From contig JAHBVJ010000016.1 of assembly GCA_019637615.1 (NCBI GenBank), positions 1-64,000 on the forward strand: a stretch of DNA of 64,000 nucleotides, given 5' to 3'. A program made the translations under genes and the position numbers. Shown piece after piece: positions 4,090 through 10,124 of this stretch. Below the pieces are notes generated by a model, which was given only the letters and a program-made list of their open reading frames with translations, was not told where the DNA came from and ran no database searches. Positions within the stretch are counted from its first letter, which is position 1; every line of letters begins with the position of its first letter. This DNA is from Anaerolineae bacterium. GTDB taxonomy: Bacteria > Chloroflexota > Anaerolineae > Aggregatilineales > UBA2796.

Positions 4090-4749
4090 TTAGAAATTTG
4101 TTACATGGATGCGCCCCAGCAATGTATCGAGGTCGATCTCTTTGAGCAGATAAGCACGCATATCGTCCATCTGGACAGTTAACAGACTTACTGCTGTATC
4201 TGGTGGTAATCCAACGAGCAAGCTGATCTCATCAATATCGTAGCCATTCCTATCAATGGTTGCGGCAGTAGTAACAAGAATTAAGACCCACTCTCGAAGG
4301 AAAGATGCCTCGTCATTACTGGTCGTAATATAACCAATCAGTATGCCTCGCACACCACCATTGGGGCGTCCGTCTGTCGCCCGCACAGACCTTATATCCA
4401 AGCCCGTGATCTTTAGCGCATCCGAGATGACCCTATTTATAGTGAGTGCATAGAAGGGAGCTTGCGTAGGTGTCGCTGTGTTTGTCGGTGTACGCGTAAC
4501 AGTAGATGTACGTGTTGAGGTTGGCGTGCGAGTTAGCGTCGAAGTTCTAGTTAGTGTGGGCGTCCGCGTCATAGTCGGAGTACGGGTGGGACGTGGTGTA
4601 CGCGACGGGATAGGCGTCCGAGTAGGGCGAATAGTGCGAGTTGGCACTGGCGTGTTGTTAAACGCTTGACCGAAGGCTACTATCGGATATGATGACGAGT
4701 AGGTGACCAGTAACAGCAATAAACATCCACAAATAATTGTGAGCTTCAT
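4090..4749 (-). CDS. secreted protein with Thr-Pro-Arg repeats, unknown function
   Basis: A 219-residue exported protein of unknown role. Residues 1-29 are a clear signal sequence (basic start, then a leucine-rich core). Residues about 35-92 are a degenerate repeat built on TRTPT/TRTST units, a low-complexity Thr-Pro linker common in Chloroflexota surface proteins. Residues 95-219 form a small globular domain with no motif I recognise (NRVISDALKITGLDIRSV, VQMDDMRAYLLKEIDLDTLLGRIHV). The repeat also makes a hexamer-like DNA periodicity at 4478-4670, which is coding, not a DNA element. A 10-base palindrome TGTTATAACA at 4815-4824, about 66 bases before the start, could be an operator. Confidence 0.72.
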   Translation of the reverse strand: MKLTIICGCLLLLLVTYSSSYPIVAFGQAFNNTPVPTRTIRPTRTPIPSRTPRPTRTPTMTRTPTLTRTSTLTRTPTSTRTSTVTRTPTNTATPTQAPFYALTINRVISDALKITGLDIRSVRATDGRPNGGVRGILIGYITTSNDEASFLREWVLILVTTAATIDRNGYDIDEISLLVGLPPDTAVSLLTVQMDDMRAYLLKEIDLDTLLGRIHVTNF

Positions 4750-4854: not shown

Positions 4855-6144
4855 TCAGCCGACACCATCGTCGGTCTGGCGTTTGGCGTAGCTGGCGAGT
4901 GGTAGATGTGTATCGGCCTCAATCGCTAGTAGACGATTGTATTTGGCAAGACGCTCGGACTGCGTGATCGAGCCGATCTTGATGTGATCGCCGCCCCAGC
5001 CGACGGCAAGATCCGCCAGCCAGTTATCCTCGGTTTCGCCGCTGCGGGCGCTGACGGTGATGTGCCAACCCGCCTGCCGCGCGAGAGAAGCGGCTTCGTT
5101 AGCTTCGGTCAACGTACCGATCTGGTTGACCTTGAGCAGCAGCGCGTTGGCGGCTTCGGACGCGATAGCACGGCGGATGCGGGTCGGGTTGGTACACAGA
5201 AAATCGTCGCCCATGATCAGGGTTTTATCAGTGAGGCGCGTGCGCAGTGCCGACCAATTCGCCCAATCTTCCTCCGCGAGGCCATCTTCGAGGCTGATCA
5301 CGGGATAGCGCTGCGTCCAGTCCATTAACTGCGCGATCATCTCGGCACTGGTGAGATGACGCCCATCCAATTGATAGCGCCCGTCGGCGTAAAATTGACT
5401 GGAAGCGACATCGACGGCTAGAGCAATCTGCTGACCGGGGACGTAGCCCGCCGCTTGAATCGAGTCGACGGCATCTTGCAGCATGGCTTCGGTGGAAGGG
5501 AAATCGGGAGCCAGTCCGCCTTCATCCGCACGCAGCAGGCGCATGTTGTACTTTTGCAGGATCAGGGCAGCGGCGGTTTGGTACACAGCATAGGTCATGG
5601 CGAGGGCTTCGTCCATGGTGGCGGCGATGGGGACGATCAGGACGTCCTGAATCGCGGTTTGGCCGCCCGCGTGTTTGCCCCCACTGAAGAGGTTGATGGT
5701 GGGATGCGGAATATGGCGCAGTGGCAAATTCGCCATGTCCGCGAAGTGCTGGTAGAGCGGCAAGCCCCGTTCGGCGGCGACAGCGCGCGCAGTGCTGATC
5801 GAGACGGCAAGCAGGGCATTCGCGCCCAGACGTGATTTGTTGGGTGTAGCATCGAGCGCCACCAGCCAGCCATCGAGATCATGCTGATGATTGAAAGGGC
5901 GATCTTTCAGCGCGTCGTTGATCGTCGTGTTGATGTTTTCGACGGCACGACGGCAGCCCAAGCCGCGATAACGTGCCGGATTGCCATCGCGCAGTTCCCA
6001 CGCTTCCGCCGCGCCCGTCGATGCGCCAGAGGGGACGGAGGCGGTCGCCATGTAGCCGCTGTGCAAGACGCAGGTGGCCTGTACCGTCGGACGCCCGCGA
6101 CTGTCGAGGATTTCTAGCGCACGCAACTGCTTGATCATGGACAT
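4855..6144 (-). CDS. enolase-superfamily protein, divergent (enolase-like)
   Basis: Enolase fold throughout its 429 residues, but not a standard enolase. Kept: the SGASTG loop, the proton-donor Glu in ADEGGLAP, metal ligands in ALDVASSQF, SLEDGLAEEDW and GDDFLCTN, the catalytic Lys in LLKVNQIGTLTE and the late Lys in HIKIGS. Changed: the usual SHRSGETED reads SARSGETED (His to Ala, His373 in yeast numbering); IQEF reads IQDV (Glu168 to Asp); NGGSHA reads SGGKHA; ILDSRGNPTVE reads ILDSRGRPTVQ. The abstraction machinery is intact while phospho-substrate contacts are altered, so a related dehydration on another phosphorylated acid is plausible. Its ATG overlaps the upstream kinase stop (TGATG). 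A housekeeping enolase elsewhere in the genome is expected. Catalysing 2-phosphoglycerate dehydration remains possible. Confidence 0.8.
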   Translation of the reverse strand: MSMIKQLRALEILDSRGRPTVQATCVLHSGYMATASVPSGASTGAAEAWELRDGNPARYRGLGCRRAVENINTTINDALKDRPFNHQHDLDGWLVALDATPNKSRLGANALLAVSISTARAVAAERGLPLYQHFADMANLPLRHIPHPTINLFSGGKHAGGQTAIQDVLIVPIAATMDEALAMTYAVYQTAAALILQKYNMRLLRADEGGLAPDFPSTEAMLQDAVDSIQAAGYVPGQQIALAVDVASSQFYADGRYQLDGRHLTSAEMIAQLMDWTQRYPVISLEDGLAEEDWANWSALRTRLTDKTLIMGDDFLCTNPTRIRRAIASEAANALLLKVNQIGTLTEANEAASLARQAGWHITVSARSGETEDNWLADLAVGWGGDHIKIGSITQSERLAKYNRLLAIEADTHLPLASYAKRQTDDGVG

Positions 6145-7181
6145 CAGGTTGATAGCCTCGCGAGGAAATGGTCGATCAGATCAGGGATGGTGGTCGGCGG
6201 CGCGTGCATGAGCTGGCAAACGACGGATATTTGGCGCTGTTTGGCGTCGGCAGAGAGATATTCAACCTGCGAACGTCCAGCCGCACGCGCCATCAGACAG
6301 CCGAGTGTGTGATGCACGGCGCGCGGTTCAAGCGAAGCATGCCAATCGAGATCGCCTAGTTCGTGGAGGTAGCTGTGCCAATACAGCTTGGAGGCCGCGC
6401 CGAAATCGGAGCGCTGCGCCGCGAGATGATGGGCTTTGCAGAGCAGATGCGTGAGCGAGAAGCCGATGTCGAAAGCCGGATCGCCCCAATGCGCGACTTC
6501 GTGATCGAGCAGGATGGGCTGATCCTGATAGATGAGCACGTTTTTGGGGCTGAAATCACCGTGTACAAGCGTCAAAGGATGCGCTAACGTATCCGTGATG
6601 AGGGCGGTCAGGAAATCGGCGGCGTCCGCGATCTGCGTGCTGGTGTAGCGGTAGTAAGGTTCGAGGCGGAGCGACTCGAAAAAGTTGCAGGCGGCGAAAC
6701 TGGGCTGCACCTCGGTGCGATGGTCATAGGTGAGGCGGTGAAGTTGGCCTAGGAGCGATCCGAAACTGGCTGCATGTGCTTGCGACAGGCCACCCGTCAA
6801 CAGCCGTTTCTTCCAATTTTCGTGCGGCTGCGGGACGGCTTGCATAGCGACGACATGCGCGTCGTGATCCTCGAAGATCAGGGTGGGAACGCGTCCGGAC
6901 GGGAGTAAGCGGTTGAACCAGCGCATCGCCAAGGCTTCGCAGTGGATGCGCTGCGGATCGCTGAACCAGTCCGTGGCTACGCGCAGTTTATCTAACGACT
7001 GTTTGAGCACCCATGCCTCGCCGCTGGCACGTTCGACCAGCACAGTACGGCTGGAGATGCCGCCCGCCAAGACCTCGATTCGCGGCGTTTCGTCGGAGGC
7101 GATATGCTGGTGAGCGCGTAGATAGGCAAGCAAGGCAGACGATTGTTCAATGTCAAGCGATGGTGTTGGTTGCGCAGCCAT
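6144..7181 (-). CDS. aminoglycoside-phosphotransferase-family small-molecule kinase
   Basis: A 345-residue protein-kinase-like phosphotransferase (APH/choline-kinase fold). Ser/Thr-rich loop GGISSRTVLVE near residue 42, the ATP-contacting Lys in EAWVLKQS, the catalytic Brenner motif LVHGDFSPKNVL at about 215-226 and the metal Asp in ILLDHEVAHWGDPAFDIGF are all present, so it should be active. The KQ.L..LRV.TDW start and HGDFSPKN loop recall 5-methylthioribose kinase and homoserine-kinase relatives, but I cannot name the substrate. It is the first gene of a two-gene unit: its TGA shares a base with the ATG of the enolase-like gene, so the two proteins are made together and probably act in one pathway. 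Confidence 0.85.
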   Translation of the reverse strand: MAAQPTPSLDIEQSSALLAYLRAHQHIASDETPRIEVLAGGISSRTVLVERASGEAWVLKQSLDKLRVATDWFSDPQRIHCEALAMRWFNRLLPSGRVPTLIFEDHDAHVVAMQAVPQPHENWKKRLLTGGLSQAHAASFGSLLGQLHRLTYDHRTEVQPSFAACNFFESLRLEPYYRYTSTQIADAADFLTALITDTLAHPLTLVHGDFSPKNVLIYQDQPILLDHEVAHWGDPAFDIGFSLTHLLCKAHHLAAQRSDFGAASKLYWHSYLHELGDLDWHASLEPRAVHHTLGCLMARAAGRSQVEYLSADAKQRQISVVCQLMHAPPTTIPDLIDHFLARLST

Positions 7182-9050: not shown

Positions 9051-10124
9051 TTATCTCAAGCGTGGCGATTTGATCGGCGCTTTGCCGAGGCCAGCAGAGG
9101 CTTTCTCTGGTCGTGGTTCGCGCGTGATCATGCGTTGATAGCCTTGGTAGCCTTGCAAACGGGTATCGTCGGCGGCTGTGCCATGCTGCTGCAAGGTGCG
9201 CATGATGCGCTTCATCGAGTCGGGGATGTCTACGGAGCCGTGTTTGGTGATCACGACGCCCGTGATCGTTGGTTCCTCATCGCGATCCCAGACCTGCCAA
9301 CCTTTATCTGGATGCAGCGCGTAGCCGTATTCGTGTAACACCGAGCGCACTGCAAATTCGAAATCGGCAGGCGGCGCGTAGCCCTCAGGCCAGCTAAAAC
9401 AGAGATCGTCAGCATAGCGCGTGTAGATGCCTCCACTGGCTTGGATGTGCCGTTCGAGCGCGGTATCCATTTGTGCGTTGACAAGATTACTCAGCGGCGG
9501 GCTGGTGGGCGCGCCCTGTGGCAGCGATCCGTGCAGCGTAGTGAGCGCGGTCAGCAAGCGAACTTCGGGCGTAGAAAAGCCCTGTTCGTGCCACCACTGC
9601 TTGACGTGCTGACGCGTCGTATTCGGGAAGAAGTCCTGAATATCGGCGGTGATGATGATGCGGCTGTTGGCGTGTGCCCATGCGTGATCGGCAATGGATT
9701 TTTTGCGACGGAAGCCATAGGCGGCATGATGCGGTTGGGCTTTGCGCAGCAACATGGTCAGGATGCGGCGCTGCACCTGCTTGAGCTTGGGGCCGGGTTC
9801 AAGGAGCTGGCGCGGGGAGCCATCGCGTTTGGGGATGGTGAACTCGCGATAACGAAAACCTGATGGAAACGCCGCTGAGTCCATGATCTGGTGAGCATCT
9901 TCGACCTTCAAACCGAGCCGATAGCACAGCGTGACCATGCTCCATTCACCCTCGTTGCGCGCAGGTGAGGTGTAGCGGTAGGCGGGCGGCAGCCCAACCA
10001 GACGGCGGAGCGTATTCGGCAAGTCGTTCAGCATGATAGCCATCCGATCAAAGTGCTGTCGTGTAAGAGAGAGCGATCCGCCACGCCACGCTCGTGGAAG
10101 GCGGTACTTACGGTTCACGGACAC
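9051..10124 (-). CDS. reverse transcriptase, retron-like
   Basis: RNA-directed DNA polymerase, 357 residues from a GTG start (a shorter start at the Met near 10043 is possible). Palm motifs are in order: YREFTIPKRDGSPRQL (RT1), LLRKAQPHHAAYGFRRKKSI (RT2), IITADIQDFFPN with the first catalytic Asp (RT3), LPQGAPTSPPLSNLVN (RT4), IYTRYADDLCFSW with the catalytic YADD (RT5), and GYALHPDK followed by PTITGVVIT, close to the VTG element typical of retron RTs. There is no maturase or HNH domain and I see no group II intron RNA around it. A slipin gene lies 107 bases upstream on the same strand, behind a structured leader. That arrangement (RNA, accessory protein, RT) is what retrons show. Assignment to the retron clade is inference from motifs. 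Confidence 0.88.
   Translation of the reverse strand: MSVNRKYRLPRAWRGGSLSLTRQHFDRMAIMLNDLPNTLRRLVGLPPAYRYTSPARNEGEWSMVTLCYRLGLKVEDAHQIMDSAAFPSGFRYREFTIPKRDGSPRQLLEPGPKLKQVQRRILTMLLRKAQPHHAAYGFRRKKSIADHAWAHANSRIIITADIQDFFPNTTRQHVKQWWHEQGFSTPEVRLLTALTTLHGSLPQGAPTSPPLSNLVNAQMDTALERHIQASGGIYTRYADDLCFSWPEGYAPPADFEFAVRSVLHEYGYALHPDKGWQVWDRDEEPTITGVVITKHGSVDIPDSMKRIMRTLQQHGTAADDTRLQGYQGYQRMITREPRPEKASAGLGKAPIKSPRLR

Follow-up and report, generated by a model that had tools for sequence, protein, structure and literature searches.

A linked APH-fold kinase and altered enolase form a candidate catabolic module for 2,3-dihydroxy acids in bacteria and haloarchaea

Introduction

Enolase is a textbook glycolytic enzyme and is thought to have one job. 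One relative, carboxyphosphonoenolpyruvate synthase, belongs to phosphonate biosynthesis, and such paralogues can take new substrates. The gene pair described here joins an enolase paralogue to a small-molecule kinase of the APH fold, and several known systems offer partial parallels to this arrangement.

ACAD10 and ACAD11, which combine a kinase domain with an acyl-CoA dehydrogenase, do process a hydroxy acid derivative by means of an APH-type kinase and a subsequent elimination (PMC11342911). The pair would resemble these proteins in that its kinase phosphorylates such a derivative and its partner eliminates a group. In ACAD10/ACAD11, however, a CoA ester loses the phosphate, whereas in the pair, if the enolase mechanism holds, phosphate would stay and the group on C3 would leave. 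The class V lanthipeptide dehydratase LxmK/LxmY also unites an APH-fold kinase with an elimination partner, and LxmK is related to the pair kinase in fold (Z ~25) with a weak profile match; unlike the pair, it acts on peptide Ser/Thr and its partner is not an enolase. The serine cycle ends in hydroxypyruvate reductase, glycerate 2-kinase, enolase and PEP carboxylase, and rhizobial plasmids that carry the pair have a functionally equal set. The pair differs from this tail in a kinase of unrelated fold, an altered enolase and a catabolic rather than methylotrophic setting. Three classes of glycerate kinase have been described, with no mention of aminoglycoside kinases (PMC2063504).

Literature searches with thin coverage of subscription papers found no published description of the kinase-enolase pair; since most such papers lay outside that coverage, this absence is weak evidence of novelty.

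Results and Discussion

The gene pair in the window

The window analysed is the whole 64,000-nucleotide stretch of contig JAHBVJ010000016.1 from an Anaerolineae bacterium. Both open reading frames were found where the initial annotation had placed them, and the stop/start overlap that it claimed was seen (Table 1). This overlap is consistent with translational coupling of kinase and enolase. Homologous pairs of adjacent genes are also tightly packed, with a gap between aligned ends of at most 60 bp in 56 of 68 cases (median 11 bp). Pfam assigned the APH family to the kinase and the N- and C-terminal enolase domains to its partner.

Table 1. Coordinates of the kinase-enolase pair and of two altered active-site codons in the window
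Feature	Position	Strand	Remarks
APH-fold (methylthioribose-kinase-like) small-molecule kinase	6144..7181	-	345 aa; PF01636 APH, 65 bits; AlphaFold model
Enolase paralogue, kinase-linked subfamily	4855..6144	-	429 aa; PF03952 and PF00113; D at yeast E168, A at H373
TGATG stop/start overlap of kinase and enolase genes	6142..6146	-	one base common to TGA and ATG
Codon of enolase D167 (yeast Glu168, substrate-contacting residue)	5644..5646	-	active-site alignment
Codon of enolase A366 (yeast His373)	5047..5049	-	active-site alignment

The pair stands alone in the window, with no sugar-acid genes beside it. Directly downstream of the enolase gene, positions 4090-4749 of the same strand encode an exported protein with a low-complexity stretch rich in Pro, Thr and Arg. 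Upstream of the pair, separated from it by a few genes and also on the minus strand, lies a reverse transcriptase ORF (9051-10124, RVT_1, 357 aa) of retron or other type. A viral homologue that might indicate a phage origin of the pair was looked for and not found.

Kinase and altered enolase are inherited together

The initial annotation had staked its proposal on linkage of homologues to the kinase. Among 151 relatives, the altered enolase was present in 51 genomes, every one of which also had the kinase; the kinase was alone in 2, and 98 had neither. The two genes were adjacent in 45 of the 51 pair-bearing genomes (co-occurrence and adjacency, like the glycerate kinase percentages below, were tallied by hand from search tables). 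The altered enolases of these relatives showed 56-67% identity, and canonical copies fell in a separate band of 44-49%. An independent scan of public genomes recovered 337 kinase relatives, the best 80 of which came, according to record names, from Chloroflexota, Planctomycetota, Acidobacteriota, Verrucomicrobiota, Deinococcota, Actinomycetota and SAR324. An enolase lay within 1 kb of the kinase in 68 of the 76 testable loci of that scan, and on the same strand in 67. These figures confirmed the linkage and ruled out chance adjacency. The genes are also co-inherited: kinase and enolase distance matrices correlated with r=0.92 (89 pairs; the highest value in permutations was 0.26), and with r=0.63 inside the main clade.

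Distant kinase homologues on plasmids behaved in the same manner. Every plasmid kinase homologue whose flanks were read had an enolase homologue within ~7 kb, usually adjacent, the separation reaching ~7 kb on Cupriavidus and Rhizobium plasmids. These plasmid pairs span alpha-, beta- and gammaproteobacteria, Actinomycetota, Bacteroidota and haloarchaea (hosts: Haladaptatus, Halomarina, Azospirillum, Rhizobium, Sinorhizobium, Paracoccus, Roseibium, Sphingobium, Methylobacterium, Caballeronia, Paraburkholderia, Cupriavidus, Rhodococcus, Embleya, Persicobacter and even Enterobacter). The pair is a two-gene unit across many bacterial phyla and salt-loving archaea.

The kinase-linked enolases form a clade with a fixed active-site signature

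In fold and two-metal site the window enolase is like the canonical enzyme (EC 4.2.1.11). Active-site alignment bore out the initial reading that metal ligands, the general base Lys and the acid Glu are kept, with His373 replaced by Ala and Glu168 by Asp: equivalents of S39, H159, E211, D246, E295, D320, K345, R374, S375 and K396 (yeast numbering throughout, except where noted) are all in place. The best match among solved enolases was 4yws, a Chloroflexus enzyme, and the site is complete except for Glu168->Asp and His373->Ala. In the Chloroflexus structure Glu165, the equivalent of yeast Glu168, contacts 2-PGA directly (PMC4450660).

The substitutions set the kinase-linked enolases apart from canonical ones. 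Position 168 was Asp in 90/90 kinase-linked sequences and Glu in 11/11 canonical; position 373 was mostly Ala (80 of the 90), otherwise Val (9) or Gly (1), and His in all 11. Two further sites, numbered as in the window protein, follow the same division: 206, which adjoins the E211 equivalent, was Ala in 89/90 as opposed to Gly in the canonical set, and 154 was Ser or Gly in 90/90 as opposed to Asn. Conversely, the metal ligands (D246, E295, D320), Lys345, Lys396, Arg374, Ser375, His159 and Ser39 were invariant in 101/101 sequences, and Glu211 was kept in all but one (89/90 of the kinase-linked). A maximum-likelihood tree of 70 rows parted the two groups by a single branch (support 100/99), the canonical comparison being 11 enolases, none archaeal, and the Enterobacter sequence a very long branch.

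Conservation of this signature is far beyond chance. A decayed pseudo-enolase is ruled out by the invariance of the metal ligands and most catalytic residues. It is likewise very improbable that the homologue has no catalytic activity, or a regulatory role, and simply travels with the kinase, even with two leaving-group-side residues replaced, because a dead enzyme would not keep its metal ligands, base Lys, both phosphate ligands and Lys396 in all 90 sequences. The Glu168->Asp and His373->Ala/Val changes lie on the C3 leaving-group side and probably tune the enzyme away from the 2-phosphoglycerate of ordinary glycolysis.

Databases label the altered enolase as an ordinary one. The window protein scored 439 bits against the TIGR01060 'eno' profile (cut-off 300), and its NCBIfam name would be 'phosphopyruvate hydratase'. 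With a kinase-linked clade scoring above this cut-off, many genomes would carry a mis-assigned step. Four residues could serve as a signature for re-annotation: D at 168, A/V at 373, and A at 206 and S/G at 154 of the window protein.

Hosts already possess canonical enolase and glycerate kinase

The window enolase could have been the sole enolase of its genome, an outcome that the initial annotation, joining it to rescue of an eno mutant, regarded as fatal to its idea. This was ruled out by a separate eno with canonical residues on contig C12 of the host genome (8.2 Mb, 85% complete; G000:C12:326486-327712), to which the window enolase is 45-46% identical. Most pair-bearing genomes also hold a canonical enolase. 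Class I glycerate kinase was present in 43 of the 51 pair-bearing relatives, class II in one further, and the genome of the window has class I as well, so simple D-glycerate salvage is already covered. Nor is there support for the module as a stand-in for a missing glycerate kinase: a recognised one is present in ~86% of the genomes with the pair and in ~88% of the rest. Because ordinary forms of both enzymes are present in most hosts, the active-site change that the altered enolases conserve is left unexplained, and this counts against plain 2-phosphoglycerate as the substrate.

The kinase has an intact APH-type active site

In a 22-sequence alignment, the residues H207, G208, D209, S211, P212, K213 and N214 of the HGDxSPKN loop (207-214) were invariant, as were K60 (nucleotide Lys), E82 and D226 (metal Asp). 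So too were the basic residues R78, K124, R172, K249 and R299, which would suit an acidic substrate. The AlphaFold model (pLDDT 94) found its closest solved fold in methylthioribose kinase (MTRK; Z ~36 over 327 residues, 17% identity), followed by PsiK and LxmK. Profile scores fell below cut-off both for MTRK (TIGR01767, 48.4 bits, cut-off 275) and for LxmK (NF038156, 51 bits, cut-off 315). A role as the methylthioribose kinase of methionine salvage was rejected on this score; no salvage genes were noticed nearby, and the kinase goes with an enolase instead. A Pfam scan matched only APH and other protein-kinase-like families; neither of the two glycerate kinase families scored, class I (PF02595) and class II (PF13660), was among them. 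If it acts on glycerate, the kinase would represent an unrelated, fourth class of glycerate kinase.

Pairs lie among genes of acid catabolism

Within 6 kb of the kinase at 129 loci we counted 51 SDR genes (0 expected from control regions), 33 MR/MLE dehydratase genes (3.5 expected), 20 FAH genes (0 expected) and 20 D-2-hydroxyacid dehydrogenase genes (0 expected), ratios that are rough because the query proteins were taken from pair loci and the control set was small (21 loci, regions of Chloroflexota genomes). Sugar ABC permeases were not clearly enriched (23 against 14 expected, 1.6x control). An association with sulfatases was discarded, their density being equal to that of controls (15 genes, 14 expected). 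Away from the pair, clear MR/MLE genes in the genome of the window number 13 (the two enolases not counted), FAH matches 4 and strong 2-hydroxyacid dehydrogenase matches ten.

Individual rows were catabolic in appearance. Dictyobacter has GntR-FAH-ZnADH-MR-kinase-enolase, a row that resembles a non-phosphorylative 2,4-diketo-acid route; the nearest model of its FAH protein is 2,4-didehydro-3-deoxy-L-rhamnonate hydrolase (231 bits, cut-off 500). By established family chemistry, a 2,4-diketo hexonate cleaved by an FAH enzyme would give pyruvate and glycerate. Rhodococcus has FAH-CtBP-enolase-kinase-FAH, while in Paracoccus and Roseibium LacI precedes kinase-enolase-FAH-SDR-sugar ABC transporters. 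On four Rhizobium and Pararhizobium plasmids, PEP carboxylase, CtBP and kinase form one row, and the altered enolase lies 4-5 kb away beside an extradiol dioxygenase. A true D-galactonate dehydratase (635.8 bits, cut-off 311) adjoins the pair at locus L099.

Proposed function and alternatives

The neighbourhoods support a role in acid catabolism, in line with the phospho-acid pathway of the initial annotation; the chemistry of such a pathway may be new, or it may be a dedicated glycerate-to-PEP tail. We consider it fairly probable, judging from sequence comparison, that the pair is a catabolic two-enzyme module which phosphorylates the 2-hydroxyl of a 2,3-dihydroxy acid and then dehydrates the product, giving PEP or a homologue of it. 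We infer the reaction order, substrate class and product as follows. The acid would come either from non-phosphorylative sugar-acid breakdown, with MR dehydratase, dehydrogenase and FAH hydrolase as its enzymes, or from a 2-keto acid reduced by D-2-hydroxyacid dehydrogenase. The kinase would transfer phosphate from ATP to the 2-hydroxyl of this 2,3-dihydroxy carboxylic acid. In the altered enolase, two metals, Arg374, Ser375 and Lys396 would hold the 2-phospho-acid while Lys345 takes the C2 proton and the C3 group is expelled, and the resulting phosphoenolpyruvate or close homologue would enter central metabolism.

The acid is most likely glycerate or a C3/C4 relative. PEP is favoured as the product because PEP carboxylase occurs in the rhizobial rows and a phosphoglycerate mutase gene stands beside one lone kinase (G105), and the D configuration because of the D-2-hydroxyacid dehydrogenases and the D-galactonate dehydratase beside one pair. 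The substrate may be D-glycerate, a different stereoisomer, or an acid that is larger or carries other substituents, and the proposed mechanism takes in the first two alternatives below as sub-cases. The pair would then lead from sugar acids, and from some aromatics, towards PEP by a route that has gone unrecognised. More tentatively, with the balance tipping slightly against it, the altered enolase may be a subfamily with a new 2-phospho-acid specificity (in stereochemistry, chain length or leaving group), nearly always accompanied by an APH-fold hydroxy-acid 2-kinase, both undescribed. They would make up an ATP-dependent dehydration module that occurs widely, has spread between bacteria and archaea, and is mistaken in annotations for glycolytic enolase. 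In either form the pair is a specific, testable two-enzyme set.

A substrate of other stereochemistry or with a bulkier C3 is a reasonable possibility, if not the one to bet on: 2-phospho-L-glycerate, a C4 or longer 2-phospho-aldonate, or a 3-O-substituted 2-phosphoglycerate with a leaving group other than water. Smaller residues at 168 and 373 would give room or alter the acid/base side, and the changes at 168, 373 and G206A are all at the leaving-group side while carboxylate, phosphate and metal ligands are kept. Redundancy with glycerate kinase and the varied contexts, sugar-acid and aromatic, also favour such a substrate, but the rhizobial PEP carboxylase points to PEP itself, and the D-2-hydroxyacid dehydrogenases and D-galactonate dehydratase suggest the D configuration.

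Ordinary D-glycerate salvage seems rather unlikely. The kinase would here be an APH-fold D-glycerate 2-kinase and the enolase an isozyme converting D-2-phosphoglycerate to PEP, its substitutions altering only kinetics or regulation. The likeness of the rhizobial PEP carboxylase, D-2-hydroxyacid dehydrogenase and kinase to a serine-cycle tail argues for it, together with the D-galactonate dehydratase at L099, the mutase beside the G105 kinase and the glycerate expected from FAH cleavage. Most hosts, however, already have class I glycerate kinase and canonical eno, and isozyme drift fits poorly with replacement in 90/90 of a residue, Glu168, that contacts 2-PGA.

Action on a special phospho-acid in secondary metabolism, in the manner of carboxyphosphonoenolpyruvate synthase, is improbable: phosphonate biosynthesis offers a precedent for such paralogues and the Enterobacter chuandaensis plasmid version sits in a biosynthetic-looking row, but nearly all other contexts are catabolic, and that copy, at only 34% identity, no longer has the SxRSG motif. 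We also considered and set aside sulfolactate or sulfite elimination, for which no supporting genes were seen beyond one Ldh_2 protein far under the sulfolactate dehydrogenase cut-off.

Several loci showed features of their own. The lone G105 kinase (L101 8187-10183) belongs to a genome in which the altered enolase was not found, and the adjoining phosphoglycerate mutase gene was identified by its sequence start. A conserved catabolic set including the kinase-enolase pair, with extradiol dioxygenase, Zn alcohol dehydrogenase, cupin and CtBP-like dehydrogenase, occurs at L204 (1803-16200) and its relatives L207, L210 and L214, and at L201, L203, L213 and L215, in rhizobia, Cupriavidus, Paraburkholderia and Sphingobium. 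On Enterobacter chuandaensis plasmid pE20191216 (L218 7211-18834), the far-diverged enolase homologue is annotated as hypothetical and adjoins the kinase homologue in a row with an aminotransferase, an M14 peptidase (metallopeptidase), an iron-containing redox enzyme and a nucleotidyltransferase. On two haloarchaeal plasmids (L196 12699-13727 and L197 11074-12069), an ilvC-like gene lies beside the pair in a sugar-acid-type cluster, an odd setting for branched-chain amino acid synthesis.
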